Shown piece after piece: positions 13,500 through 58,312 of a stretch of 64,000 nt of DNA. The stretch lies in contig OX387195.1 of the NCBI GenBank assembly GCA_947561395.2, positions 24,319,126 through 24,383,125 on the forward strand. Reading direction: 5' to 3'. Origin of the DNA: Buxus sempervirens. Its lineage: Eukaryota; Streptophyta; Magnoliopsida; Buxales; Buxaceae. Under the pieces are notes generated by a model. That model searched no databases and was not told the DNA's origin. It saw only the letters and a program-made list of their open reading frames with translations. Both the position numbers and the translations under genes were made by a program. The stretch's first letter is position 1; each line of letters begins with the position of its first letter.

Positions 13500-13868
13500 T
13501 TAGGAAGAATTTGTTTTTAGTGATGTTTTTTCGAATAAATTCAGATTCAATCGCCTAATTCTTGTTAATTGAGAATTAATGATATGTTTTAAAATAATTG
13601 AGAATCATAGTCATTTTATTGTTCATGAAGTATTTCTTCCAAAAATACTCTCAAAAGACTTTGAAAACCTTTTTATTCATTTTGTTACAAATGAAGTTTG
13701 CAAGTCTTTTGAGGGCATTTTCGGAAGAAATATTTCATGAATAGTAAAATAACACTGTTTTCAAATTAATTTAAAAAAAGTATCACTAATTCTCAATTAA
13801 CAAGAATTTATCGACTGAATTTTAATTATGTAGAAAAAGTATCACTAAAAATCAATTTTCCCCGAATA
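13500..13868. mobile_element. Foldback MITE (long terminal inverted repeats)
   Basis: Left arm motifs TTTTTAGTGATG, CTTGTTAATTGAGAATTA, GTATTTCTTCC and AAGACTTTG reappear as inverse complements in the right arm (AAGTCTTTTGAGGG, GGAAGAAATATTTCATGAA, TAATTCTCAATTAACAAG, GTATCACTAAAAATC). A short central loop lies near 13670-13700. No coding sequence. The outer motif is shared with the element at 27791-27983. Confidence 0.65.
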
Positions 13869-19000: not shown

Positions 19001-20047
19001 GAGTGACTAATGCATGTACCTATCCTTATCAGAATACTGTGAAGGAGCCCACAAGGAAGAACATGTATAAAGGTGTATCAGGAGCATATGGCATAATTGT
19101 TTTGACCTACTGGCAGCTGGCTTTTACTGGTTACTGGGCATTTGGATCAGATGTCCAGCCCTATATTCTGGCATCTCTCAGAAATCCTGAATGGACAATT
19201 GTTATGGCAAATATATTTGCAGTGATCCAAATATCAGGATGCTTTCAGGTATCTATCAGATGCATCTAATCGAGTGTTAAAATGTTTCAATAACACACTC
19301 CCTTTTTTCCAATTGGAGTAATAATGTTAAAAGATCTGAATAACATAATGCCCTTTTGTTTTTCTTAAGATCAAATGAGGAACATCTGGATCTGTAAATC
19401 TTTTTATGATGAAGTACCTAAAGAGATCCTGTTAAGGATCTGCAGACAACAGATTTAGTATTCATAAACCGAAACTACACTTTTTAGTTTAGTTTAGAAT
19501 TGTAAAAATGAAAATATGAAAACCAAATTGCTTTTTATTTTATAATTTTTGTCTTCTAATCTCTGAACATCATGTTATGCATGTAACATGAATTAAAAAT
19601 ATGAATCTGTGAACTTGTCTTTCCTTGTCTGATTCAATTCTATTTGTTTAGATATATTGCAGGCCAACTTATGCCTATATTGAGGAAAGAATAATTCCTA
19701 ATAATACTAACAGTGCCAATGCTGTTCGAAGTTATCTGCTGCGCATTGCTCTCACTTCAGTGTACATGGTTATTATTACAATGGTTGCTGCAGCCATGCC
19801 TTTCTTTGGGGATTTTGTCTCCATCTGTGGAGCCGTTGGATTCACTCCTCTGGACTTTGTTTTCCCTTCTTTAGCATTTCTAAAAGCTGGAAAGATGCCC
19901 AAGAACTCAAGATTTCGCTTTTCAGTGCAGGTCCTCAACTTCACTATTGCTACTTGTTTTTCTGTTGTAGGAGTGCTGGGTTGCATTGGTTCAGTCAAGC
20001 TTATTATAGAAGATATAAAGACTTACAGGTTCTTTCATGATATGTGA
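16005..20047 (+). CDS. AAAP-family amino acid (GABA-transporter-like) permease, frameshifted
   Basis: Seven exons: 16005-16212, 16819-16941, 18295-18389, 18466-18651, 18775-18905, 19033-19248, 19652-20047. The intended product is about 451 aa. It is a plasma-membrane amino acid/auxin permease with about ten membrane segments. It contains ATTIATPAAYAPLPFALSSL, VGGTLATWYSSLLIASLWKW, FGDAMLPEIQNTVKEPTRKN, SGCFQIYCRPTYAYIEER, and FFGDFVSICGAVGFTPLDF near the C-terminus. All junctions are GT-AG and in phase. In exon 4 the frame breaks: AVYKYYHKDGSLTLQ is in one frame and IIFFGAFELFLSQLPDIHS in the next. This fits a single missing base near 18513-18518 with an early stop after it. The remaining exons look constrained, so an assembly error or a recent null allele is as likely as an old pseudogene. 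The exact substrate cannot be told from the sequence. Confidence 0.88.
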
Positions 20048-28101: not shown

Positions 28102-28333
28102 ATTGGAATGAAATCGTCTATCATGTTTCCTTTAAGTGCTCTCTGATGTGGTCGTGAGATGCTGCCATGTGGAGCATCTCGCGGTCACTATTTTTTCATG
28201 TGTTATAAATTTATCAAGTGAGCTCTGCATGAAAAAAAACAGTGGCTATGAGATGCTCCACTTGGCAGCATCTCACTACCACATCATAGAGCAAATCAAG
28301 GAAGCATGACAGACGATTTTCAACTCATTGGAA
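28102..28333. mobile_element. Foldback MITE
   Basis: Two arms of about 100 bp are inverse complements with few differences. GTGAGATGCTGCCATGTGG with AGCATCTC on the left matches the inverse of GAGATGCTCCACTTGGCAGC on the right. The loop spans about 28206-28235. Non-coding. Confidence 0.7.
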
Positions 28334-42751: not shown

Positions 42752-43926
42752 AGGGATTAGCAAGCTTCAGGGAGCAGACCGATTTTGGTACGGATTGAGG
42801 GCTCGGCATTTTTGGTCCCATGTGAAATATCGTATCATTGAATTAATCATCTTGTTTCATGTATTTAAAGTATAATTAATACCACTTCAAAGTCTTTAGA
42901 GGCGTGTACAGATATATCAAGTGGCTTTGTTTTACTTCGTTACACTAATAATTAGAATCTATATTTTTTTTCCCTTCATTTGTTGATTTTTAAGTTTAGG
43001 AGATAGAAGCACGTTCTTCTTTCGGGAAAGGAGGATTAGGGAAATCCTATTGATTGAAGCTTTCTCCAAACCTCTGGGAAAAGCATGAAAAAAAAAAAGG
43101 CTCGAATGGTACGATCCATCTGTCGCCCTAGAATGAAAGGAGTGATCTTGTAGTTCTTAGTCTATGAAGATGCGTTGTTAGGTGTTCCATTTGATTTTCC
43201 CATTAAGACCGAATCTAGCCGAGTTTACTAAGTAGTGGCAAGAACAGTGCTGCGGCTTAAGGATAATGAAATGTCATGTCAAAGAGAAAAACCGAAAGAA
43301 AAAGATAATAAAAGAAATAGGTTTTCAAACCACAAGTCTCGTTTAATAACAAAATCTCTGAAAAGCTGGATTTAAGATTAGTTTTTAGGGTTTTTGCCAT
43401 CCTAATTCCTAATCGTAGAAAACGATCCTCAAGATTTACGCTAAGTGATGTTCGTGATGCGGATCATGTTTTTTTTTTTTTTTTGAAACTCAGGGTTTCA
43501 GGTCCGCTTACGCTCAATCTACTAATCCCTAAGGTCCATGCAAAACTCTGCAATCCACATGGTCCGGTTAAGTCCAAGGCCCATACACTTTATGCAAGTC
43601 TTTCTTTACTTCTACCATGATGAACTTCTAGTGTTGTGTTTGAGTCTTCTGATCATTTCATGGTCTAACCCCATATATTAATAAACAACAAGTATATGGT
43701 TTAATGAAATAAAGAAAACCTTGGATAGAGTGAAGAAAGGAGGGACTCCGGAAACATTCAAATAGGAGCACTTCTGAGATGGAAAACCGGAATTACACAA
43801 TCCCATAGAACCATCCAAATTGTCGTCGCACTCACTGCAACAGAATGAGTGTCCAAGGCCATTGATGAGAAAATAAAAAGATTTCATACCCACATGACAG
43901 AAAATTATGCTCTCATTGTAAAACAG
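42752..43926. other. Convergent spacer between TPR10 and PFD4 copy 1
   Basis: Contains the 3' flank of TPR10, the probable plastid insert and, from 43702, the start of the duplicated PFD4 segment. No further gene is supported. Confidence 0.55.
43011..43220. other. Probable plastid DNA insert (NUPT) in the TPR10 3' flank
   Basis: TTCTTTCGGGAAAGGAGGAT, AGGGAAATCCTATTGATTG, GGCTCGAATGGTACGATCC, GAATGAAAGGAGTGATCTT and GATGCGTTGTTAGGTG resemble the conserved spacer of the plastid inverted repeat near trnV/rrn16, as I remember it. Several differences look like C-to-T or G-to-A changes, as expected for an aged, methylated nuclear copy. It carries no gene. Recognition is from memory and needs alignment. 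Confidence 0.6.
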
Positions 43927-46900
43927 TCATTCCTCTTCCAAATTGATGGAGTCATTGAATTTCATATACAAAATCTTCTTTAACTCGGCCATCTGTGCAA
44001 TAATGGAATCCTTCTCCTCTTCTAGTTTCTCCAAGTTTTTACTAGTTACTTCTTTCATCTGCTCTATCCTGCTCTCAACTTCTTCCTTGGGCATTTGAGC
44101 AAAAACCTCACCTATCTGAAAGCGCAACACTTCCTCATCTGTCAGAATCAACTCATTGCTTGCATCCTCCAGGTTATCATTTGTTTCCTGAAAAACATAG
44201 AACATTTAATTGAAAAAAAGAAAAAAAAAGGGCAAAAGAATGCATCTGGAGAACATGAAAGGACCTTGGTTAGATAAACACAATCAGGCAACATCAAACG
44301 ACACAAGTAGTGCCGTATATTCTCATATTCTCAAAGCAAAACAAATTTGATACTTTCATGACAATAAGTAAATAACAACAAAGACCTAAAGCAATGAAAG
44401 AGCATTGAAAAGCAAACAAAGAGAGAGAGACCAAAAAATAATGGTTGTGACTCGTATAATCCAGAACTCCAGTGTAGATTAAAAAGCAGCTATGAATAAG
44501 ATAACAATAATATGTTGCAAGCAACATATCTCAGGTAACTAAAAATCAACCACTTCATACGAACAGATATACACCCACAGCCATTGTTTTTTCCCAAGTG
44601 ATACAGTTAAAAATTAATTGGCATATAAAAGATAACCACAGGATCACTAGATAACGTGAATATTTGCTTTCCATAAAGCCCTTTTCCTTTTTCCCCAATT
44701 GATCCTTTAATGGTAGTGATCGTAGCACAGAAAAATGTAATGTAGTTTATTGAAGGTAGTATTTGCAGTTTATTGAACTGACTTCGGTTATCTTTACTTT
44801 TGAATTCATCTCCCCATACTCTTCTCCTATACTGCTGATCCAGGTATTTATACATTCAAATACTTATGTCAATGAATATCGCTGAAAAAGCTTTCTACTT
44901 TTCAAAAGCTTCTTTTAAAGTTCATTTAATCACAGAGAATATTTTTAATGTCTACTTGTTCTATTACATATCATTGTTTGCTATTTACCTAACCTTTTCA
45001 GCATTAAAACTCAGAGCATAACAGATGGATCTATTGAGCCATTGACATCAAATCAAGGTAATGGGAACCTATATGAAAAAAAAAAACATACCTTCATCTA
45101 GTGTAAAACACGAGAACATAAAAAATAATATATACACGATAAGCCATTTGCTTTACATACTTCAACAATCCTTTAAAAAACCAAAAAAACAAATTCCAAG
45201 TGCTGGATATCTAATAAACTGCAATAATTGAACCTGAAAAGCAAGAAATGGAGAACAATTGGCATTGATCCTTTTGTTGTATGATCACATACACAGAAAT
45301 ATTTCTCCAAAACAATACCTATTTTCATTGTCCATGGTAAATAAGAAATAACACAAGAAAAATACTTTAATTTATTTAATATAGAAAAGGTGAACTTGGC
45401 ATTACTCTCGTAAACCAACAAACAAAAGCCTCATTCCTTATTTCCCCTGCAGAAACATAATATGAAGCAATTTCTCTTAAGGTAGAAATGTTCCCCAAGG
45501 AGGATCTGGAAGAAAATATTTGCTTCAGAAAAAAAGTATGCCAAAAAGTCATTCAGATAACCCTTGAAGCTGAATCCCAACAAGAGGATGAAGGTATCCA
45601 TAACTGACTTGAGCATTGTTAAATAGTTCATGTCCAGTTCTTGGCTAAACTAGGGTAGATGTTGTCAGAAGACCAATAAAAAGGTGGGAAGGATTAGAAT
45701 TTCCTTAAGTAACCAAAGAACAATTACAGACGAATGAAAAATGGAATTTGTGCATAATATGCGAAAGTTTCTTGCAGAACAGTAAAGATCTACTGTAACT
45801 TATTTAACAAACAGCCAGAAGCAAGTACGCAAAACAACCGCTAATCAGATGGACAACTTGCGGATTAAGGAAGCAACACAAAATCATCAAGGATTGCTCA
45901 GCTTGACTACTTTTCATATATTGGACAAACTGCACTTACCAGGGGTGAGCGCAAGTTTTGTTTAATGAAAAACCATTGAGTTCAACGATTCATAAGATCA
46001 ACTAATTCATCCTTTGGGACACATCCCACTACTATTTCCATCAATCCGTCCACAGATCCAAAATCAGAAGTTGATAAGTGCAATAGTCCTTGCACACCCC
46101 ATTCACCCATTCATTGAATTATACCTAAGTGTATTAAAATCCAGTAAAATGAACTTAAAAAAGACAGGAATACAACGTGTGCCTCCACACTGTGGTAACC
46201 CAAACATGGAACTCTCACTATCGAAATCAAATCAAAATCGAGCATCAAAAGCTGAATTCCTAATCATATTTCATCAGCACAAAATATCCTAATCTGCAAC
46301 TTCTATTGCTTAATCTGAATTCTCAAACCACAAGCATCTAAAGTGTGTTACGCTAGAAATTTCATCAATATTTATTCAGATAAATCCATACTAGTAAAGA
46401 ATGCACCCATCAGATTTCGAGAAAATAAGGAGGGTTCAAATCATCAAACATAACCACCTATCCCGAAAAGATTTTAGAAACAAAGTTTCACCAAAGACCA
46501 AAACAAGAGAGCTGATGGTTAACTACCTTAGCGATCCTGATCTCGTCTTCGAGCTCATGAAACCTGTTGTTTAATCTTCCAAATTTGTTGATATTCTGCT
46601 GATCCTCCCATGTCACCTCCGTCTCCGATCCTCCGCCCTTAAAATCGATTCAAGACATTTCATTTTCCCATAAATGAGTAAAATTAAAAAGATTTCTTAC
46701 GTAATGAGATGAAGAGAACTAGGGTTTTAAGTTTCTACCTGTTGCATTCTTATTTTTCCTTTTTTGTCTCGAAGAGGTCGAGAGAAGCTACCGCAGTTTC
46801 TAAGGTTCTCTTTAGTTTTCTCAACGAGGCCTCTTGACCGTTCCTACTTCCGATGCAACTATAAGAACCCTCGAGGTGCAGTGTGACATCGCAGAGCCAT

Positions 46901-47010
46901 ATTTTGTTTGTTTTTTCATCGATATTCTTATGTTATTTTATATTTGTATTTATATCATCTTGTTTTTATATTTATATTTATATCTTTTATTTTATATAAT
47001 TGTTGCAATT
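43702..47010. repeat. PFD4 segmental duplication, copy 1 (3.3 kb)
   Basis: From TAATGAAATAAAGAAAACC at 43702 to the ATATAATTGTTGCA region near 47007 this sequence is collinear with 51861-57123, through exons, introns and flanks. It lacks the three insertions present in copy 2, and each insertion point is intact here. Confidence 0.9.
43927..46747 (-). CDS. PFD4: Prefoldin subunit 4, copy 1 (126 aa)
   Basis: Three exons: 46739-46747 (MQQ), 46527-46637 and 43927-44187. The product is a beta-type prefoldin subunit, part of the hexameric chaperone that hands actin and tubulin to CCT. It starts [20 protein letters not shown] after MQQ and has two coiled-coil arms ([16 protein letters not shown] and [20 protein letters not shown]) around the beta-hairpin region [18 protein letters not shown]. 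Length is close to the usual ~129 aa. Compared with copy 2 it has KFGRL (copy 2 KFERL), MPKEE (MPREE), DSIIAQ (DSITAQ) and KKILYMKF (KKSLYAKF). From memory, G, K and I match the usual plant sequence better, while M in YMKF is unusual. The frame is fully open. Confidence 0.95.
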
Positions 47011-47125
47011 ATCATGTTAAATAGACCATTATTGTGTTAAACGGGTCATTATCAGGTTGAACGGATAATTATCGGATTAAACAGATCATTATTGAGTTTA
47101 ATGGATCATTATTGGGTTAGATTCG
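47005..47125 (+). repeat. Degenerate ~22-bp tandem repeat at duplication edge
   Basis: About five copies of a unit like GTTAAACGGGTCATTATC occur in tandem (ATTATCATGTTAAATAGACC, TTGTGTTAAACGGGTC, AGGTTGAACGGATAA, GGATTAAACAGATC, GAGTTTAATGGATC). They begin where similarity between the PFD4 copies ends. Confidence 0.6.
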
Positions 47126-48743
47126 AGTTGACTCGAATACAAATGGGTTCTTAAATCCCCAACTTGAAACCGACCCAAATATTACACAAGTCAACCTGAA
47201 CCCATTTACTCGGTTGGATTGTACATGATGGATCAATTTTTTCCCGATCTAGTTTTGTGCCGAGAGTTTTAGAAGCAAGAAAGCAAATTTATGATTAAAG
47301 TGAGAAGCAACATTTCTATGCTTCTTTTGAAAAGCAATGAAATTGCTTTTTTACTTACTAGTTAGCCCCCCACGTGCTACGCACGTGGAGGGCCTTTGAA
47401 TAAAACAAAAAAAGAAAAAAAAACTTTTTAAAGATTTATAGAAAAGAGTCAAAATTGGTTAAATTAACTTTCTAATGGTTTCTTTAGGTATGAAACTTAA
47501 TAAATCTACTTTTAAAATAAAGTGCATGCTCAAACAATAAGAAACAATTATGAAAAATTAATATGTGAAATACTAATGAAACAAAATATATGGGAATTGG
47601 GATATTTAAATATAAGGCATTTAAAAGTAAAAATCCATTGTAATAGGATCATAATATGCAAGAGCTCTGATCAAAACTTTTCCTTAGGCATCAACTTCAT
47701 GTAGGTGCATCTTGTAGATATTTCCTTACAATTCGGCCCATACATATCCATGCAAATATCCAATAAAGGCCCAACAAATAGCCTATAGGTCTAAACTATT
47801 TTTCTTGAATATGGATATTGTATACCCATCATGCTACCATCACGAACAAGAATGTAAACTCATCATAAGCTTCACTAAGAGGACCTAGTCGAGACCAACT
47901 TTTCTTTGAACAGATATTTTAATTTATCTTGACAATTTGTTGATAGTAATATTTGTGGCTTCAAATATATTAATCACCAGCCAAGTTAACCAAACACCTA
48001 ACCCCCTTAGCTCAAATATATTAATCAAAATTTAAGTTATTCAGATATATCTATGCCATGGGATAACGTTAGTTTGTATATGCATAGGATCTCATATAAA
48101 GGTTTCACCTATTCAATGGCATAGACGAAATTTGGTCAATACATGCTGTTAACATCGCAAAATAGAGAGTATAAGTTATTTGGATATATCTATCCCAATG
48201 GATTTTATTACTTTTCATATACACAGGATCTCACATAAAGGCATGATTTTTATAATGGCATAGGCAAAATTTAATGATCAACCCATCACACTAGCATCAC
48301 AAAATGGATTTCATCATCATCATGGTCAACCACACAAACACATTTTCAAGATCCCGGCCAAAGAACTACTATAACAGTCATGAAAATTGGTTTATTTATT
48401 TTATTTATTATTTAAGTCCACAAAACTAATTAGAAAAAGAATGAGGTTACCAAAAGTATGGTTGTTCATTGGATAGTCTCCAACCAGTCTGCAAGAGCTG
48501 CTAAGGAAGGTTGTGCTTGTTGAAAAATGACCAAAGTTGTTGATTAAGAACCTTGAGTGGACCCAACCTACCTATTTAAATATAACTCATGATTTTTTCA
48601 GAGCTAATAATGAAATAAATTGTATAATACAAAGTTATGTTGCATGATTTTGAAATGAATCACCATTCACCAGTACTCACAAGGAATCTGCTAGCTCCCA
48701 TACAGAAAAGGGAAGATGAAATGAGCACATAACCTAAATATAT

Positions 48744-48747
<4 letters not shown>

Positions 48748-48802
<55 letters not shown>
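48748..48802. repeat. (GA)n microsatellite
   Basis: A run of about 27 GA units inside the Helitron. Confidence 0.95.
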
Positions 48803-48804
<2 letters not shown>

Positions 48805-49531
48805 TACAAAATCCTGACAATAGGAGGCCATCATGATGCAAATAAAATAGGTTGCATAAGGAAATAGCCAATGTAGTAGTGCTTCTTGTGGCTTTGTTTA
48901 ACCGCCTGCAACACCATTACATATAAGAATCCACCAAATAGCCAATTTGGATTACTCATAGCCAAATATCATCAGGCCAACAATAACATGTTTACAATAG
49001 TAAATCTATTTCAATAATAAATTTTGATTTCCAATAAACTTTACTTTCAAATACTCTTGTATTCCCGGGTAGATCTCTCGTAAGCAAATGTAAATATTAT
49101 GTGCCATGTAACAGAATCATGGTAAAGAAGATGAGATGTAGCAGTTTGTACAACTAAAAGTAAAGTTTTTTTTTTTTTTCGGTAATGAAAGTAAAATTTA
49201 TTACTAACAATAGTTGAAACATCTTCAATAAATTCGTTTCTAGCTAGCTACGGAAAAGACAATAAAAGAAATAGATCTATTTAAAAATAAAAGAGGAAAA
49301 CAGAACATATAAAAAAAAAGAAAAAGAAAGAAAAGAAACAGTGAACTTTTTTTGGCTTTCTTCCTTGCTTCTTTCTTCATTGAAACTTACAGGGAGAAAC
49401 CGTGAAACTTCAGAATCTCTATATATAAAGAACAACAGGAACAAGAACTATAACGAGCGACAAGAACAAGTCGGGTCTTCTCCTCATCAATTTTTTTAAA
49501 ACCCATGCAATGTTTGCCTTGACGCACAGCC

Positions 49532-49666
49532 GAAGAAAAACCGCTTTATGGCAAGCAACACATTCCCAAGCAATACATTCCCAACACCAAGAACCGCTTG
49601 CGGACTTGGGGCAATCAAATCGCCGAGATGTACCGCATGAACCTCCTCGATGATTCAGAAAGTTAG
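49532..49666 (+). other. Protein-like open stretch inside Helitron, unknown
   Basis: A 44-codon open frame ending in TAG reads EEKPLYGKQHIPKQYIPNTK and continues NRLRTWGNQIAEMYRMNLLD before DSES and the stop. It has no ATG near its start. The composition looks like a real C-terminus, so it could be a second captured gene tail, antisense to the LAX fragment. I do not recognise the family. It may be chance. Confidence 0.25.
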
Positions 49667-49773
49667 CTAGTTGCCCAACGAGAAATCGCAGTGATATTCT
49701 TGTCTGTTACCAGGGCCAAAGTTTTAGGAGTTTTTACCCTGCTCGACAAAGAACTTGGGATAAAAAACCTTAC

Positions 49774-50450
49774 CTTGCGCAAGGTACAAGCCTTATAAAG
49801 GATCCAAACAAGAGAAAAGCACAGATAGAGGCGAGTCCCATGACTTTTCAGTAGGGACCAAGCAATCCGTCCATTACTTCGAACCAATGCTGGCCAAAAG
49901 GAAGTTTTTCTTTCGTTCATTAGTGGAATTGAAAATAGAAGAGTTAGAACCAGAACCAGAAGTATCTGTCAAGTTGATCTAGGTAGGTGTGAGCAGCTAA
50001 CCTGTATGACATGGTCCTTGAAGCTAACATTCACTTTATATCTTTCCGGCTTCGGTAGTCGACATACAAAACCCTGATGACGTATGCTGTCCAGCTACCA
50101 ACAAGACCGTAGAACAGCTAAAGTAAGATGCCGGAAAGCACACCCATTCAAGAGAAGAATATAGTAGCGTTAACAGTACCTGGGCGACTTGTAAATGAAT
50201 TGAAGAGAAATTAGAATTCGTTAAATGATTTGAAAGGAAGCAAAGGGGATTTTCGTTTTCTACATTTTTTTCGATCTGGGATTTCGCAAAGTTACTCGAT
50301 TCAAAGCGCAGTTAACACAAAGCCGCCATGTGAGAGAAAGCTCTTGAAGCTCAAGTTAGATTGATCCCCCATTTCTTCCTTTTTCTCTTCATGCTACGTC
50401 TCGTTAATGCTTGAGCCGTTCGATTCTACGGCCTGCTTCTGAGTTAACAT
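49774..50450 (-). pseudogene. LAX: Captured 5' part of an AUX1/LAX auxin influx carrier
   Basis: Three consecutive exons of an auxin influx carrier survive with introns. Exon 1 (50450-50296): MLTQKQAVESNGSSINET, then EEMGDQSNLSFKSFLSHGG. Exon 2 (50187-50002): AQVLLTLLYSS, then MGVLSGILL, LFYGLVGSWTAYVIRVLYVD, YRSRK and VNVSFKDHVIQ. Exon 3 (49889-49774): HWFEVMDGLLGPY, then KVMGLASICAFLLFGSFIRL and CA. The intron positions (after the SNQ equivalent, after HVIQ, after CA) agree with my memory of AUX1/LAX genes, and donor/acceptor dinucleotides remain. Several in-frame stops and at least two frameshifts make it non-coding. Exons for the remaining membrane helices are absent. Sequence upstream to about 50600-50900 may be captured LAX leader or promoter. 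It lies sense to the host Helitron. Confidence 0.88.
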
Positions 50451-52087
50451 CGTTTTCGCTATCTTTAACGGAGATGCATAAATGGTCCAGGGTAGATCTG
50501 AAACATAAAAGGGACCTCAAAGTAAGACAATAAAAATCGAAAAAGAAACGAAGAAATCAAATGAACCCCAGAATACGAAAGATAACAGAGGCCTCGATCC
50601 AAGGAAATAAGTGTGTCCCTCTACTCTAAGGCAAATATGACCATAGCGCAGCATAATACAAGGGAAAGATCTTTTCGAACCGAAGAAAGATAGAGAACAG
50701 GAATAAAGAGGAGGAATCGGATCTCACTCTTACCTTGTTCGAGATGTGTATTTCGTGTACATATTGAAGAAGGAAGTGTGAATCAATCCGACTCACCCAG
50801 GAAGTCTTGAACGAAGGTCGGTCTTGGGAAGGAGAGCAGAAGAGAAAGTCCGTAGAACAAATAGAAACACACAGATCTTATCTTGGGGATGAAGTTACTG
50901 GGAATGCATTACGCAATCTTGGAGAAGAAGATAATCAATCTTGGAGAAGACGTTAAGCAAATTTGGGGAGTAAGTGGACCTTTTATCTTCATGCCAAACT
51001 CACTGAAGGACTTCCTGACAGTATTAGAAATGAAGCCCACCAATGGTGGAGGAAGGACGCTGACATGGTAAATATTGAGAAACTTTGCAGCCCCGCCCAA
51101 TGGGCGAAGGCGGTCTTGGCTGACCAGGCATGTGAATGAACATGGTTACTTGGGGAAGAAGGCAAATTATAACGGATGGCAAGCTGATCACTTGAAGAGT
51201 TGGGTAAATAGTTGGGATGATGGAGGGCAATTTGGTCCGTTCGAAAAATGGAACGAAGAAAAAGAGGTCTATGCTAATTCCGTGAATATGTGGGGGAGGA
51301 AGGACAATTTGGTCGGTTCGAAGAGTCGGACCAAAACCAGAAAACCTTCCTTTTAAGTATAGGTTTGTAGAAGAGTTTGGGGAAGAAATAAGCAAATAGT
51401 GGAGGGTACTTTTGGAATGTAAAAGTGCCCAAACACTTATCGAACAGGAGATACTTGGGGAACAAGTATCGAAAAGGAGGAAAGGATTTACTGAGCCAAT
51501 AAAAATAATGGTTACTGACAACATAAAAAGTGGCTTAGGGAACAAGTACGGAAGTACCTCAAAAAGAGGAAGGGATTCACAAAAACAATATGCAAAATGG
51601 TGGAGGGCACTTTGGGAATGCAAATGTGCCCAAACACTTAAGCCCCTTCGTGCTTTTTAAGTAGTAGAGATAAATTGTTTCATTTGTGTATAACCAAACA
51701 ACACTTTTGCTTTTGAAAGCAAAATATCGAAAACAATTTTTTGCTTTCAAAAGCAAAACAACACTTCTAAGAAGCATTACCAAACAGTACCTACATCTAC
51801 CCCGAAATATAAGAATTGTGTGTGATTTCCTGTCCAAAAACAAAAAAAAAACAGAAGTACTAATGAAATAAAGAAAACCTTGGAAAGAGAGAGAAAGGAG
51901 GGACTCCAAAACATTAAAAAAGGAGCACTTCTGAGATGGAAAACCAGAATTACACAATCCCATAGAACCATCCAAATTGTCGTCGCACTCACTGCAACAG
52001 AATGAGTGTCCAAGTAAGGCCATTGATGACAAAATAAAAACATTTCATACCCACATGACAGAAAATTATGCTCTCATCGTAAAACAG

Positions 52088-55000
52088 TCATTCCTCTTCC
52101 AAATTGATGGAGTCATTGAATTTCGCATACAAACTTTTCTTTAACTCGGCCATCTGTGCAGTAATGGAATCCTTCTCCTCTTCTAGTTTCTCCAAGTTTT
52201 TACTAGTTACCTCTTTCATCTGCTCTATCCTGCTCTCAACTTCTTCTCTGGGCATTTGAGCAAAAACCTCACCTATCTGAAAGCGCAAAACTTCCTCATC
52301 TGTCAGAATCAACTCATTGCTTGCATCCTCCAGGTTATCATTTGTTTCCTGAAAAACATAGAACATTTAATTGAAAAAAAGAAAAAAAAAAGGGCAAAAG
52401 AATGCATCTGAAGAACATGAAAGTACCTTGGTCAGATAAACACAATTAGGCAACATCAAACGACACAAGTAGTGCCGTATATTCTCATATTCTCAAAGAA
52501 AAACAAATTTGATACTTTCATGACAATAAGTAAATAACAACAAAGACCTAAAGCAATGAAAGAGCATTGAAAAGCAAACAAAAGGAAGCGAGACCAAAAA
52601 ATCTCGGCAAAAATGGTTGTGACTTGTATCATCCAGAACTCCAGTGTAGATTAAAAAGCAGCTATGGATAAGATAACAATAATACGTTGCAAGCAACATA
52701 TCTCAGGTAACTAAAAATCAACCACTTCATACGAACAGAAATACACCCACAGCCATTGTTTTTTCCCAAGTGATAACAGTTAAAAATTAATTGGCATATA
52801 AAAGATAACCACAGGATCACCAGATAATGTGAATATTTGCTTTCCATAAAGCCCTTTTCCTTTTTCCCCAATTGATCCTTTAGGTTGTGTTTGGAGCCTT
52901 GGATTTGTGGAGAAAAGAAAAGAAAGCTAAAAAGGAAAAGAAAATATGAGAAAAGAAAAGAAAAATACTGATTTTCTTTTCTTTTCCGATGTTTGGATGA
53001 GATGAGAAATGAGAAGAAAAGAAAAATATATTTTAGTAAGATGACGGGTTAGGGTGGTGGGCAAGTGAGAGTGGGCGGGTGCTGATAGGGTTAGTGGGGT
53101 AACAGTGACGACAGCGGTGATGATGGCAGTGGCGGGTGGCGGTGGGTGTTGGTGGGCGGTGGTGGCAGTTAGTGTGGGTGGTGGTGATTGGCGGTGGTGG
53201 TGGTGGGCAGTGGTGGCAAATGATGGTGGTGGTGGTGATGGGTGGTGGTGGTCAGCGGTGGTGGCGGGCGATGGTGGGTGGTGGGTTGTGGTGGTGGTGG
53301 TGGATGGTGTTAGTGGTGGGCTGGGTGGGTGGTGTGAATAGTGACAAGTGATGGTGTATTTTCTTTTCTTCCAAAATTCCTACCTTTTAGGAGAGAATTT
53401 TTTACATTGGAAAGAAAGGAGAGAAAATCTCATTTTCCTTCATTTAAATCAAACAAGAGAAAAGAAAATTTTCACATTTTCTTTTCTTTTCTCCCCAAAT
53501 CCAGGGTTCCAAACACAGCCTTAATGGTAGTGATCGTAGTACAGAAAAATGAAATGTAGTTTATTGAAGGTAGTATTTGCAGTTAATTGAATTGACTTCA
53601 GTCATCTTTACTTTTGAATTCATCTCCCCATACTGCTGATCCAGGTATTTATACATTCAAATACTTGTGTCAATGAATATCGCTGAAAAAGCTTTCTACT
53701 TTTCCTAAGCTTCTTGTAAAGTTCATTTAATCACAGAGAATATTTTTAATGTCTACTTGTTCTATTACATGTCATTGTTTGCTATTTACCTAACCTTTTC
53801 AGCATTAAAACTCAGAACATAACAGATGGATCTATTGAGCCATTGACATCAAATCAAGGTAATGGGAACCCATATGAAAAAAAAAAAAAAAACCATACCT
53901 TCATCTAGTGTAAAACATGAGAACATCACAAATAATATATACATGATAAGCCATTTGCCTTTCATGCTTCAACAATCCTTATTAAAAAAAATATATAATA
54001 AGTGCTGGATATCTAAATAAAATGCAATAATTGAACCTGGAAAGCAAGAAATGGAGAACAATTGGCATTGATCCTTTTGTTGTATGATCACATACACACA
54101 GAAATATTTCTCCAAAATGACACCTATTTTCATTGTCCATGGTAAATAAGAAACAACACAAGAAAAATACTTTAATTTACTTAATATAGATAAGGTGAAC
54201 TTGGCATTACTCTTGTAAACCAACAAACAAAAGCCTCATTCCTTATTTCCCCTGCAGAAACATAATATGAAGCAATTTCTCTTAGGCTGTGTTTGTTTCA
54301 CCGGAAAATTGAGGGAAAAAAAATATTTTTCAGAATTTAAGGTTTTCCATTTGTTTGTTTTAGTGGAAAATAAAATATGAAGAAAAATATTTTCCAACAC
54401 TACTAAAAATCGGAGGAAAATAACTTCCGCCATTTTTTTGTGGAAGTTATTTTCCGGATTTCTGGAAAAAACAAAAGCGGGCTTCGCACGATCGAGCTAG
54501 GTTTGCAGCTCCATTTCCAACTGATATAGAGACATTCAATGGCTCAAAGAAGGGCGGCAATTGCTTCGGAGGAGCAACTCTGCACAATGAGTATTGATTT
54601 CTGACACCATCACTCCTAAAAATCTTACTGGTTTCCTGATTAATTTTACCGGAGAAGAATTGTATTCTGAAAAAATATATTCGGTCTGCCTTGTTGTTGG
54701 AATCAGAGAAATCAATTAGGTAGGTAGAGCTGATGATCCGAGTATCTGAATTTGGATGATTTGAGTATCTAGATCTAGATTGGAAGTGATAGTTTGACGT
54801 ATGATGAGCTGATGATCTTGTGTTGTATCGTGGTTCTTAATGTGGTTGGAAAATGCTACTGCAGCTTGTGTTGTATCCTGGTTCAAGATGAACTTTACAG
54901 AATTGTGGTGTTCTATTTAACTATACTTATCAGTGGATGATTATCATTCTCACCTTCTATATCGCATGACTGAAATTGCAAGAATCATTTTGGTAATTTG

Positions 55001-56653
55001 CACTGTATAAGATAGAATTAATTTAGACATCTAAGTATTCATTTAAAACTGAAAGCTGGATTAGCCACAAATTTCAGAAATTTTTTCCGGCTCAATCCGA
55101 TTACCATTCGAACAGAGCTTGGGCCGATTTTTTGTAAATTTGATAAAGTTTGACACCATCTTTGATATATTTAAAAGTTAGGATTAAAAACTAAATACTA
55201 AAATTTCACCTTTTCCCTCACATTTCAAACTTTATTTTCAATCCTCACTTTTCTCTTTTTTACTTTCATGTTACTTCCAAACACCTGAAAAAGGAAAGAA
55301 GGAAAATCTTTTCTCGGAAAATTTTCATCCGGAAATTATTTTCTGATAAAAAATATTTTCCGTTGAAACAAACACACCCTTAAGGTAGAAATGTTCCCCA
55401 AGTAGCATCTGGAAGAAAATATTTTGCTTCAGAAAAAAGGTATGCCAAAAAGTCATTCAGATAACCCTCAAAGCTGAATCCCAACAAGAGGATGAAGGTA
55501 TCCATAACTGACTTAAGCATGTTAGTTCATGTCCAGTTCTTGGCTAACCTAGAGTAGATGTTGTCAGAACTCAGAAGACCAATAAAAAAGTGGAAAGGAT
55601 TAGAACATCCTTAAGTAACCAAAGAACAATTACAGACGAATGAAAAATGGAATTTATGCATAATAGGCGAGAGTTTCTTGCAGAACAGTGAAGATATACT
55701 GTAATTGATTTAACAAACAGCCAGAAGCAAGTACACAAAACAACCACTAATCAGATAGACAACTTGCTGATTAAGGAAGCAACTCAAAATCATCAAGGAT
55801 TACTCAGCTTGACTACTTTTCATATATTGGACAAACTGCACTTACCAGGGGTGAGCGCAAGTTTTGTTTAATGAAAAACCATTGAGTTCAACGATTCATA
55901 AGATCGACTAATTCACCCTTTAGGACACATCCCACTACTATTTCCATCAATCGTCCATAGATCCAAAATCAGAAGTTGACAAGTGCAATAGTCCTTGCAC
56001 ACCCCATTCACCCATTCATTGAATTATACCTAAGTGTATTAAAATCCAGTAAAATGGACTTAAAACAGACAGGAATACAACGTGTGCCTCCACACCGTGG
56101 TAACCCAAACATGGAACTCTCACCATCGAAATCAAATCAAAATCGAGCATCAAAAGCTGAATTCCTAATCATATTTCATTAGCACAAAATATCCTAATCT
56201 GCAACTTCTATTGATTAATCTGAAGTCTCAAACCACAAGCATCTAAAGTGTGTTACGCTAGAAATTTCATCAGTATTTATTCAGATAAATCCATAATAGT
56301 AAAGAATGCACCCATCAGATTTCGAGAAAATAAGGAGGGTTCAAATCATCAAACATAACCACCTATCCCGAAAAGATTTTAGAAACAAAATTTCACCAAA
56401 TAGCAAAACAAGAGAGCTGATGGTTAACTACCTTAGCGATCCTGATCTCGTCTTCGAGCTCATGAAACCTGTTGTTTAATCTTTCAAATTTGTTGATATT
56501 CTGCTGATCCTCCCATGTCACCTCCGTCTCCGATCCTCCGCCCTTAAAATCGATTCAAGACACTTCATCTTCCCATAAATGAGTAAAATTAAAAAGATTT
56601 CTTACGTAATGAGATCAAGAGAACTAGCTTTTTAATGTTACTACCTGTTGCAT
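52088..56653 (-). CDS. PFD4: Prefoldin subunit 4, copy 2 (126 aa)
   Basis: Three exons: 56645-56653 (MQQ), 56432-56542 and 52088-52348, with the same structure as copy 1. The frame is fully open and all splice sites are kept, although the second intron is enlarged by two transposons to about 4.1 kb. Five residues differ from copy 1 over 126. KFERL replaces KFGRL, from a single GGA-to-GAA change and the only difference in exon 2. In exon 3, MPREE, DSITAQ and KKSLYAKF differ. No sign of decay. The proximal promoter is shared with copy 1 only for a few hundred bases. A mini-Helitron sits about 200 bp upstream of the ATG, so expression may differ between copies. Confidence 0.94.
52883..53520. mobile_element. 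PIF/Harbinger-like element with GGT-rich core
   Basis: The ends GGTTGTGTTTGGAGCC and (inverse) GGCTGTGTTTGGAACC are flanked by TTA at 52880-52882 and 53521-53523. Copy 1 of the duplication has the empty site with one TTA (CCTTTAATGGTAG, near 44703). Subterminal arms are rich in GAAAAGAAAAG and its complement. The core, about 53040-53340, is a strand-biased GGT/GGC/GTG tract with no real gene. Confidence 0.85.
54285..55379. mobile_element. PIF/Harbinger-like element (1.1 kb)
   Basis: The ends GGCTGTGTTTGTTTCACCGG and (inverse) GGGTGTGTTTGTTTCAACGG are flanked by TTA at 54282-54284 and 55380-55382. Copy 1 keeps the empty site (TTTCTCTTAAGGTAG, near 45475). The arms repeat GGAAAATA-type words. 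A short ATG-containing stretch near 54538 ([18 protein letters not shown]) is open for only a few codons and is not claimed as a gene. Confidence 0.85.
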
Positions 56654-56848
56654 TCTTATTTTTCCTTTTTGTCCGTAGATGTCGAGAGAAGCTGCCGCAG
56701 TTTCTAAGGTTCTCTCTAGTTTTCTCAACGAGGGCTCTTGACCGTTCCGACGCAATTAAAGGAACCCTCGAGGTGCAAAGTGACATCGCAGAGTCATATT
56801 TCGTTGGTTTTTTGCATCCATGTTCTTATGTTATTTCATATCTAGTTA

Positions 56849-57054
56849 TCTACTATACTATACAGAAGGCGCCTCCTTGGGAATCGTGCCAAGCATCATA
56901 TGCAACTTTTCACATTTACCCTTATACAATACTACCAAGTTTCATTAATAAAACGATAGAATTGTCAAAATTGTCACAGAACTTTTGAAACCGAACAATC
57001 GATTAAACAACTATTCCCTCCCACGACGTGCAATACTGCACGTGTACCTGCTAG
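56849..57054 (+). mobile_element. 206-bp mini-Helitron in PFD4 copy 2 promoter
   Basis: The 5' end is A|TCTACTATACTATACAG at 56849. The 3' end is hairpin ACGTGCA-ATAC-TGCACGT followed by GTACCTGCTAG|T at 57054. The corresponding place in copy 1 (near 46940) lacks the insert, which confirms the boundaries. It lies about 200 bp upstream of the copy 2 ATG. Confidence 0.85.
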
Positions 57055-57123
57055 TTTGCATCTATATCCTCTTATTTTTATATTTATATTTATATCTTTA
57101 TTTTATATAATTATTGCAGTTGT

Positions 57124-58312
57124 ACTTGACGCTACCCTCATTTTATTAAATTATTATTTATATATGTTAAAAATTTTATTTTTATGAATATCATGTACAA
57201 AAAATATATATTTTATTTTTTATTTTTTAAAGAAAACCTTTTATATGAATTTTTCATTGTAACTGGATCAATCCCGACCTGCCTTGTTATCAACAAATTA
57301 AGGACGCGTTAGGGTTAGGGTTTAGTATTGGCAAAACCCTTGACGGGGCAGGTTGCCATTCTTAATTGGAGATATTTTCTTGTTTCTTCTCATGGTCTAA
57401 TCCCAAAGAATATCAGCCTGGCTAAAACAGGCCCCTTTAAGTTAAACCATTCAATGAGCTGTCATTAACAAAGGAACATTCAATCAACTTCCGTGTATTG
57501 AGATTATGTTGAATTTTTTTCATTTCACATTTGAATGATTTTTAAGTATCATCTACAAAATTTTTCTAACAAGAATTTCATTGAAAAAGAAAACATACTT
57601 TTTAGTACAAAAATGATCAGTTAGAGGACTTAGACGTTCCCTCCAGTTACAAGACTTGCGTTTGGTCCTTATTCATTGGTGTGATCTTTTTTATTAAAAG
57701 CTACAGATGAGTCTATTATCATTTTTGTGGGACATTCGCTTTCATTACATCGATGTAGATTACCTCGTGAAATACAATAGAGCTTTTCTAGACATTTGTA
57801 ATTCGTGGTAACCCAGCGGACTCGCAGTCCTATCTGTCGCTGATCGGGATCTTCAGACCCCCCAATTCAAACACTCATATGACCATATCCATGAAGTCGA
57901 TTGGGACAAAAAGGAAGAAGGAAAAAAGCTTGTGATTGAGTCAGAAAAGAGAAGATATAGCTTACTAGCCATCCTGCATAATGAAATGCATAAAAGCATG
58001 TAATAAATTACTCATTCCAGTAACAATGGTCCAGTCTAAAACAAAAGCAAGCAAATTGAAGGAGAGAACCGAAAAGGGGGAGGCTCCGAGATAATGTAGA
58101 CATACAGTAAAGCTCCCCACATGGTATGTTAATGGGATGTAGAACATGTGGGTACACATAAATCATAAAAATAAACTGAAAAGGTTTACCTCAGAAATCT
58201 TAGGCCAGTAGCAAGTTTTATCTTGGAACAGCTGACCCGGATTGAGATTGCCATTCAGATCCAAAGAGAAGGAGAGAGGTTACAGGAGACGAGGAAGAGT
58301 AAGAGATGTTTT
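57124..58312. other. Spacer between PFD4 copy 2 and DRIP-like gene
   Basis: AT-rich, with a telomere-like TTAGGGTTAGGGTTTAG at about 57310. A short stretch at 57813-57885 has weak tRNA-like A-box and B-box words. No gene supported. Confidence 0.45.

Follow-up and report, generated by a model that had tools for sequence, protein, structure and literature searches.

In the established model, proteins of a related autonomous element would move a Helitron of the present type, which can take host sequence with it. The features described for these elements in PMC6591975 and PMC3288121 are a 5'-TC, a CTRR-3' end, a GC-rich hairpin, an AT target and the capture of gene fragments. For maize, PMC13317346 cites about 2,791 Helitrons that are transcriptionally active and contain captured sequence, drawn from 376 genes. 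For Arabidopsis PMC2575219 gives only five gene captures in 565 Helitrons, so that the frequency of capture varies between species.

The locus considered here lies in a 64-kb stretch of Buxus sempervirens DNA (the window), whose genes (plant zinc cluster, CRM domain) mark it as plant nuclear DNA. On the minus strand is a Helitron of 4,313 bp with canonical ends, the 5' one at 51670 and the 3' one at 47358. In common with the gene-capturing non-autonomous Helitrons of maize, rice and Brassica it has TC and CTAG ends, a hairpin and an A|T target, it carries host exons and no transposition protein was detected; a difference lies in the captured gene, here of the AUX1/LAX auxin influx carrier family. 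We consider it very likely that this is a non-autonomous plant Helitron which acquired the 5' portion of an AUX1/LAX gene, as a DNA-level copy with its introns, and inserted at A|T in a foldback between tandem prefoldin-like genes, and that the captured piece has since decayed and is most likely functionless for the host.

The 5' terminus, located by sequence search, is TCTCTACTACTTAA (51657-51670, minus strand) with an A before it. The TC starts at 51670 and the end reads A|TCTCTACTACT, also written A|TCTCTACTACTTAAAA, or in a longer reading of the minus strand A|TCTCTACTACTTAAAAAGC. At the 3' terminus (47358-47393, minus strand) a 29-nt hairpin is followed by TAA, CTAG and then T, the terminal CTAG at 47361-47358 being the usual form of the CTRR end of Helitrons. 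The hairpin is GC-rich, with a 13-bp stem, a 3-nt loop and a folding energy, as DNA, of -15.5 kcal/mol (z-score -6.6); none of 200 shuffles was as stable. At 29 nt, and with 7 nt separating it from the terminus, it differs from the description in PMC3288121 (16-20 bp at 10-12 bp) in its greater length and its position closer to the end. According to PMC2575219, 16 of 35 maize Helitrons have no obviously strong 3' hairpin, so that a strong one, as seen here, characterises part of the group and not the whole. The minus-strand bases flanking the element are A on the 5' side and T on the 3' side, an A|T insertion. Host gene fragments are carried also by Pack-MULE and Pack-TYPE transposons, which have terminal inverted repeats and target-site duplications. 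Unlike the situation in those elements, no inverted repeat joins the two Helitron ends among the best 25 of 33 pairs, taken longest first.

Could the two ends have been paired by chance, with no Helitron present and the LAX piece a degraded gene duplication? The 5' end alone carries little weight, since its 14-mer with two mismatches allowed is expected 0.59 times per window and was matched in 43 of 100 shuffles. Each end occurs in one copy within the window. The combination of ends is another matter. A scan of the window for a hairpin followed by CTAGT gave three candidates, the 3' end at 47358 being the strongest. When the 64-kb window was simulated 200 times with a first-order Markov model, a single hairpin with CTAGT of equal strength arose, and in none was ATCTCTACTA found up to 20 kb upstream. 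A literature search with the 5' end sequence gave no match. The termini proposed in the preliminary description for 47358-51670 lie at the coordinates given, and such a pair was seen in 0 of 200 simulated windows.

The sequence around the element also argues against a chance pairing. When the flanks are joined at A|T the left part (47218-47357) and the right part (51671-51810) of an AT-rich, MITE-like structure form one imperfect foldback of -40.0 kcal/mol, compared to a mean of -18.8 and standard deviation of 3.6 for 100 mononucleotide shuffles. This fold is an indirect indication that an older MITE-like foldback was the landing site of the Helitron and was split by it, the insertion having occurred, on this view, between A and T of a foldback placed between two tandem prefoldin-like genes. 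No homologous empty site for the LAX Helitron is present in the window. Taking these observations together with the simulations, we regard chance pairing of the ends as extremely unlikely.

The Helitron contains, in collinear order, pieces of a gene for an AUX1/LAX auxin influx carrier; they lie on the minus strand and hence in the element's own sense, as had been proposed. The stitched exons match Pfam Aa_trans (E = 7e-9) and, among PDB sequences, the solved structure of Arabidopsis AUX1 best (E = 5e-42). Four distinct PDB sequences match the stitched relic at E of 0.001 or below, all of them AUX1 (one a fusion) or LAX3, and by this comparison the fragment is specifically AUX1/LAX and not merely an amino acid transporter. 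At 16 residues that differ between AUX1 and LAX3 the relic agrees with AUX1 at eight and with LAX3 at two; judged on sequence it is nearer to AUX1, and more cannot be said.

The individual exons were scored by frameshift-aware alignment to AtAUX1 with 30 shuffles as the null. Exon 2 (about 50002-50191, minus strand) has 45 of 61 residues in common with AtAUX1 and scores 206, the shuffle maximum being 59; exon 3 (about 49774-49886, minus strand) has 25 of 37 and scores 132 against a maximum of 49. Together they are collinear with AUX1 residues 59-158. Exon 1 (50291-50450, minus strand, the 3' edge placed to within a few bases) starts with an ATG at 50450-50448, the frame of which reaches a stop after 18 codons. 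Here 22 of 45 residues are those of AtAUX1, with three apparent frameshifts, and the score is 57 against a shuffle maximum of 45. Exon 1 is absent from the tblastn matches of AtAUX1 to the window at E up to 10, and with exon 1 alone as the query no chain is retrieved from the PDB within the same E limit, a weak test because the N-terminus is the variable part of the AUX1/LAX family. A literature search using a LAX N-terminal motif gave no match. Of the three ordered exons described beforehand, the second and third are firm, with exon 1 weaker and moderately supported.

Non-coding spacers of approximately 105 bp and 115 bp separate exons 1 and 2 and exons 2 and 3, respectively. GT follows directly after exons 2 and 3 and AG is located 3 nt ahead of exon 3, while the acceptor of intron 1 is indistinct. 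Such remnants of introns indicate DNA, and not mRNA, as the source of the copy, the non-autonomous Helitron having copied the 5' portion of an AUX1/LAX gene, probably one belonging to the host, with introns included. That the relic is a processed, reverse-transcribed pseudogene which came to lie in the Helitron by chance would account for a broken gene copy, but it leaves the two spacers and the GT after exons 2 and 3 unexplained, and the likelihood of this is close to negligible.

The capture had been said to end after exon 3, and a splice-donor-like edge, CAAG|GTAAGG with the last exon G at 49774, is found there. Upstream of the ATG, in the order appropriate to a 5'UTR intron, are AAG|GTAAG at 50736-50729 and TTTCAG at 50503-50498. 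From these splice-like signals the segment 50451-50736 (minus strand) may represent the LAX 5'UTR with its intron, and the capture likely started at or upstream of the LAX ATG, in the 5'UTR. It had been recognized that LAX similarity extending beyond 47358-51670 would speak against capture by the element. A tblastn search of the window with full-length AtAUX1 (485 residues) gave no LAX match outside the Helitron, at a sensitivity too low for a relic of the faintness of exon 1. The next-best match, 26.6 bits at 19658-19882, compares with 25.8 bits for the best of 20 shuffled queries; that segment is part of another gene of the amino-acid-transporter family (Pfam Aa_trans, 2e-14) and not LAX.

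Exon 2 contains two stops and two frameshifts and exon 3 one stop. The three in-frame stops and two frameshifts in exons 2 and 3 together identify a pseudogene, in agreement with the earlier view that the copy is non-coding. On our reading the captured piece would have decayed after capture. Alternatively it may already have been a decayed pseudogene when the Helitron captured it, in which case a live LAX gene was not sampled. The level of change is relevant to this question. At residues common to AUX1 and LAX3 the relic is altered at 20 of 82 comparable positions and the block is still CpG-rich, as might be the case had the decay come first. The CpG ratio of the captured block is 0.88, the mean for 1251 windows of 1.5 kb being 0.44, and only 23 of the 1251 reach 0.88 or above. 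Seven of the 23 overlap the captured block, and the remaining 16 begin at 12.55-12.75, 28.6-28.7 and 55.8-56.45 kb. Heavy, lasting methylation is expected to erode CpG, and a high ratio despite 20 of 82 changes is not easily reconciled with a silenced transposon under such methylation. The tension is only mild because ratios as high occur elsewhere in the window, and it gives no more than a slight hint that heavy methylation was absent from the captured block. We considered the CpG ratio of 49400-50900 as a special anomaly and dropped the idea given the 16 windows elsewhere with equal or higher values. The existence of equally CpG-rich stretches also reduces the case for prior decay, and the collinear exons with a donor-like edge after exon 3 fit an intact donor as well. 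We judge decay before capture to be unlikely and favour decay after capture.

The captured exonic LAX sequence is in the sense orientation and the Helitron might, as previously proposed, yield transcripts or small RNAs matching LAX mRNA and so lower LAX expression. Crosstalk through siRNA between Helitron-captured fragments and donor genes is described for Brassica napus in PMC11986588. In the present case divergence and frameshifts make it likely that perfect 21-24-nt matches to a living LAX gene are few, and the CpG ratio shows no sign of methylation, making such an effect distinctly improbable. A further notion is that the Helitron spreads the LAX 5' end (putative 5'UTR, intron and first exons; CpG-rich and perhaps unmethylated) around the genome as an auxin-carrier regulatory region or a source of LAX-related sense RNA; we hold this to be highly improbable. 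The captured LAX piece is most likely without function for the host.

Does the element encode the means of its own movement? The Helitron has 27 open stretches of 55 codons or more, the longest having no more than 210 codons, and a Pfam scan of them all gave no match at E of 0.001 or below (best 0.016). The same scan gave no match for open stretches containing single LAX exon pieces, and being blind to these it excludes an intact Rep/helicase but not decayed remnants. With no Helitron protein detected the element is probably non-autonomous. It would then have been moved in trans, presumably by a rolling-circle process, by Rep/helicase proteins supplied by another element.

Adjacent to exon 3 a GC-richer stretch at 49400-49773 (GC 0.43, CpG observed/expected 0.92) may derive from LAX intron 3 or represent a further captured piece; it has no significant match in Pfam or the PDB. 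No second captured gene is proposed for this stretch, as the matches to TRCF (E = 0.11), ribosomal protein S4 (0.36) and DUF5332 (0.016) are below the cut-off. Elsewhere in the Helitron MSS51_C (E = 0.13), DUF6760 (0.037), Kbp-5 (0.074) and RAMP4 (0.067) were likewise below it. An Rfam search of 43000-58000 gave no match, nor did 49400-50900 against a plasmid collection. In viral contigs the hairpin had no matches and an AUX1-relative pattern had 24, none of them confirmed. Neither the plasmid collection nor the viral contigs are expected to hold plant nuclear DNA, so these results say nothing against the Helitron reading.

Repeats were also noted inside the element. Near the 5' end (51387-51640) a 54-bp stretch is present twice, 200 bp apart and 87% identical. 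A 101-bp stretch (48033-48272) also occurs twice, at 75% identity and 139 bp apart, and further on is an (AG)27 microsatellite at 48748-48801.

A search of the literature, covering titles and the beginnings of abstracts, found no Helitron capture of AUX1/LAX, and this donor gene is possibly unreported, though it does not represent a new principle. The event is an ordinary one in plant genomes and adds an example, one more clear plant Helitron gene capture whose two termini, target site and captured exons can all be read from the raw sequence. Were the donor and further copies found, the capture could be dated and the effect of captured auxin-carrier sequence on the donor could be tested.

The surroundings of the Helitron present several features of their own. 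It lies between the copies of a tandem duplication, 43702-47007 (copy A) and 51861-57118 (copy B), which are 92-95% identical over three main blocks. Each copy contains, on the minus strand, part of a prefoldin-subunit (prefoldin-like) gene. A Helitron-like insertion of 206 bp is present in copy B at 56849-57054, plus strand; it reads A|TCTACTATAC, then a hairpin, then CTAG|T. Copy A is without the insertion near 46943 and displays the empty site. The hairpin of this small insertion is not strong evidence by itself, as 28 of equal or higher score occur in 200 simulated windows and one of 200 shuffles folds equally well. Two further insertions in copy B, at 52883-53520 and 54285-55378, are absent from copy A and have TTA at both borders. 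Their inverted ends are of the kind GGTTGTGTTTGG/CCAAACACAGCC and GGCTGTGTTTGTTTC/GAAACAAACACACCC, and we take them to be like Tourist/Harbinger elements. Elsewhere in the window the segments 13503-13861 and 28111-28319 display 78% identity to their own reverse complement and are probably foldback elements.
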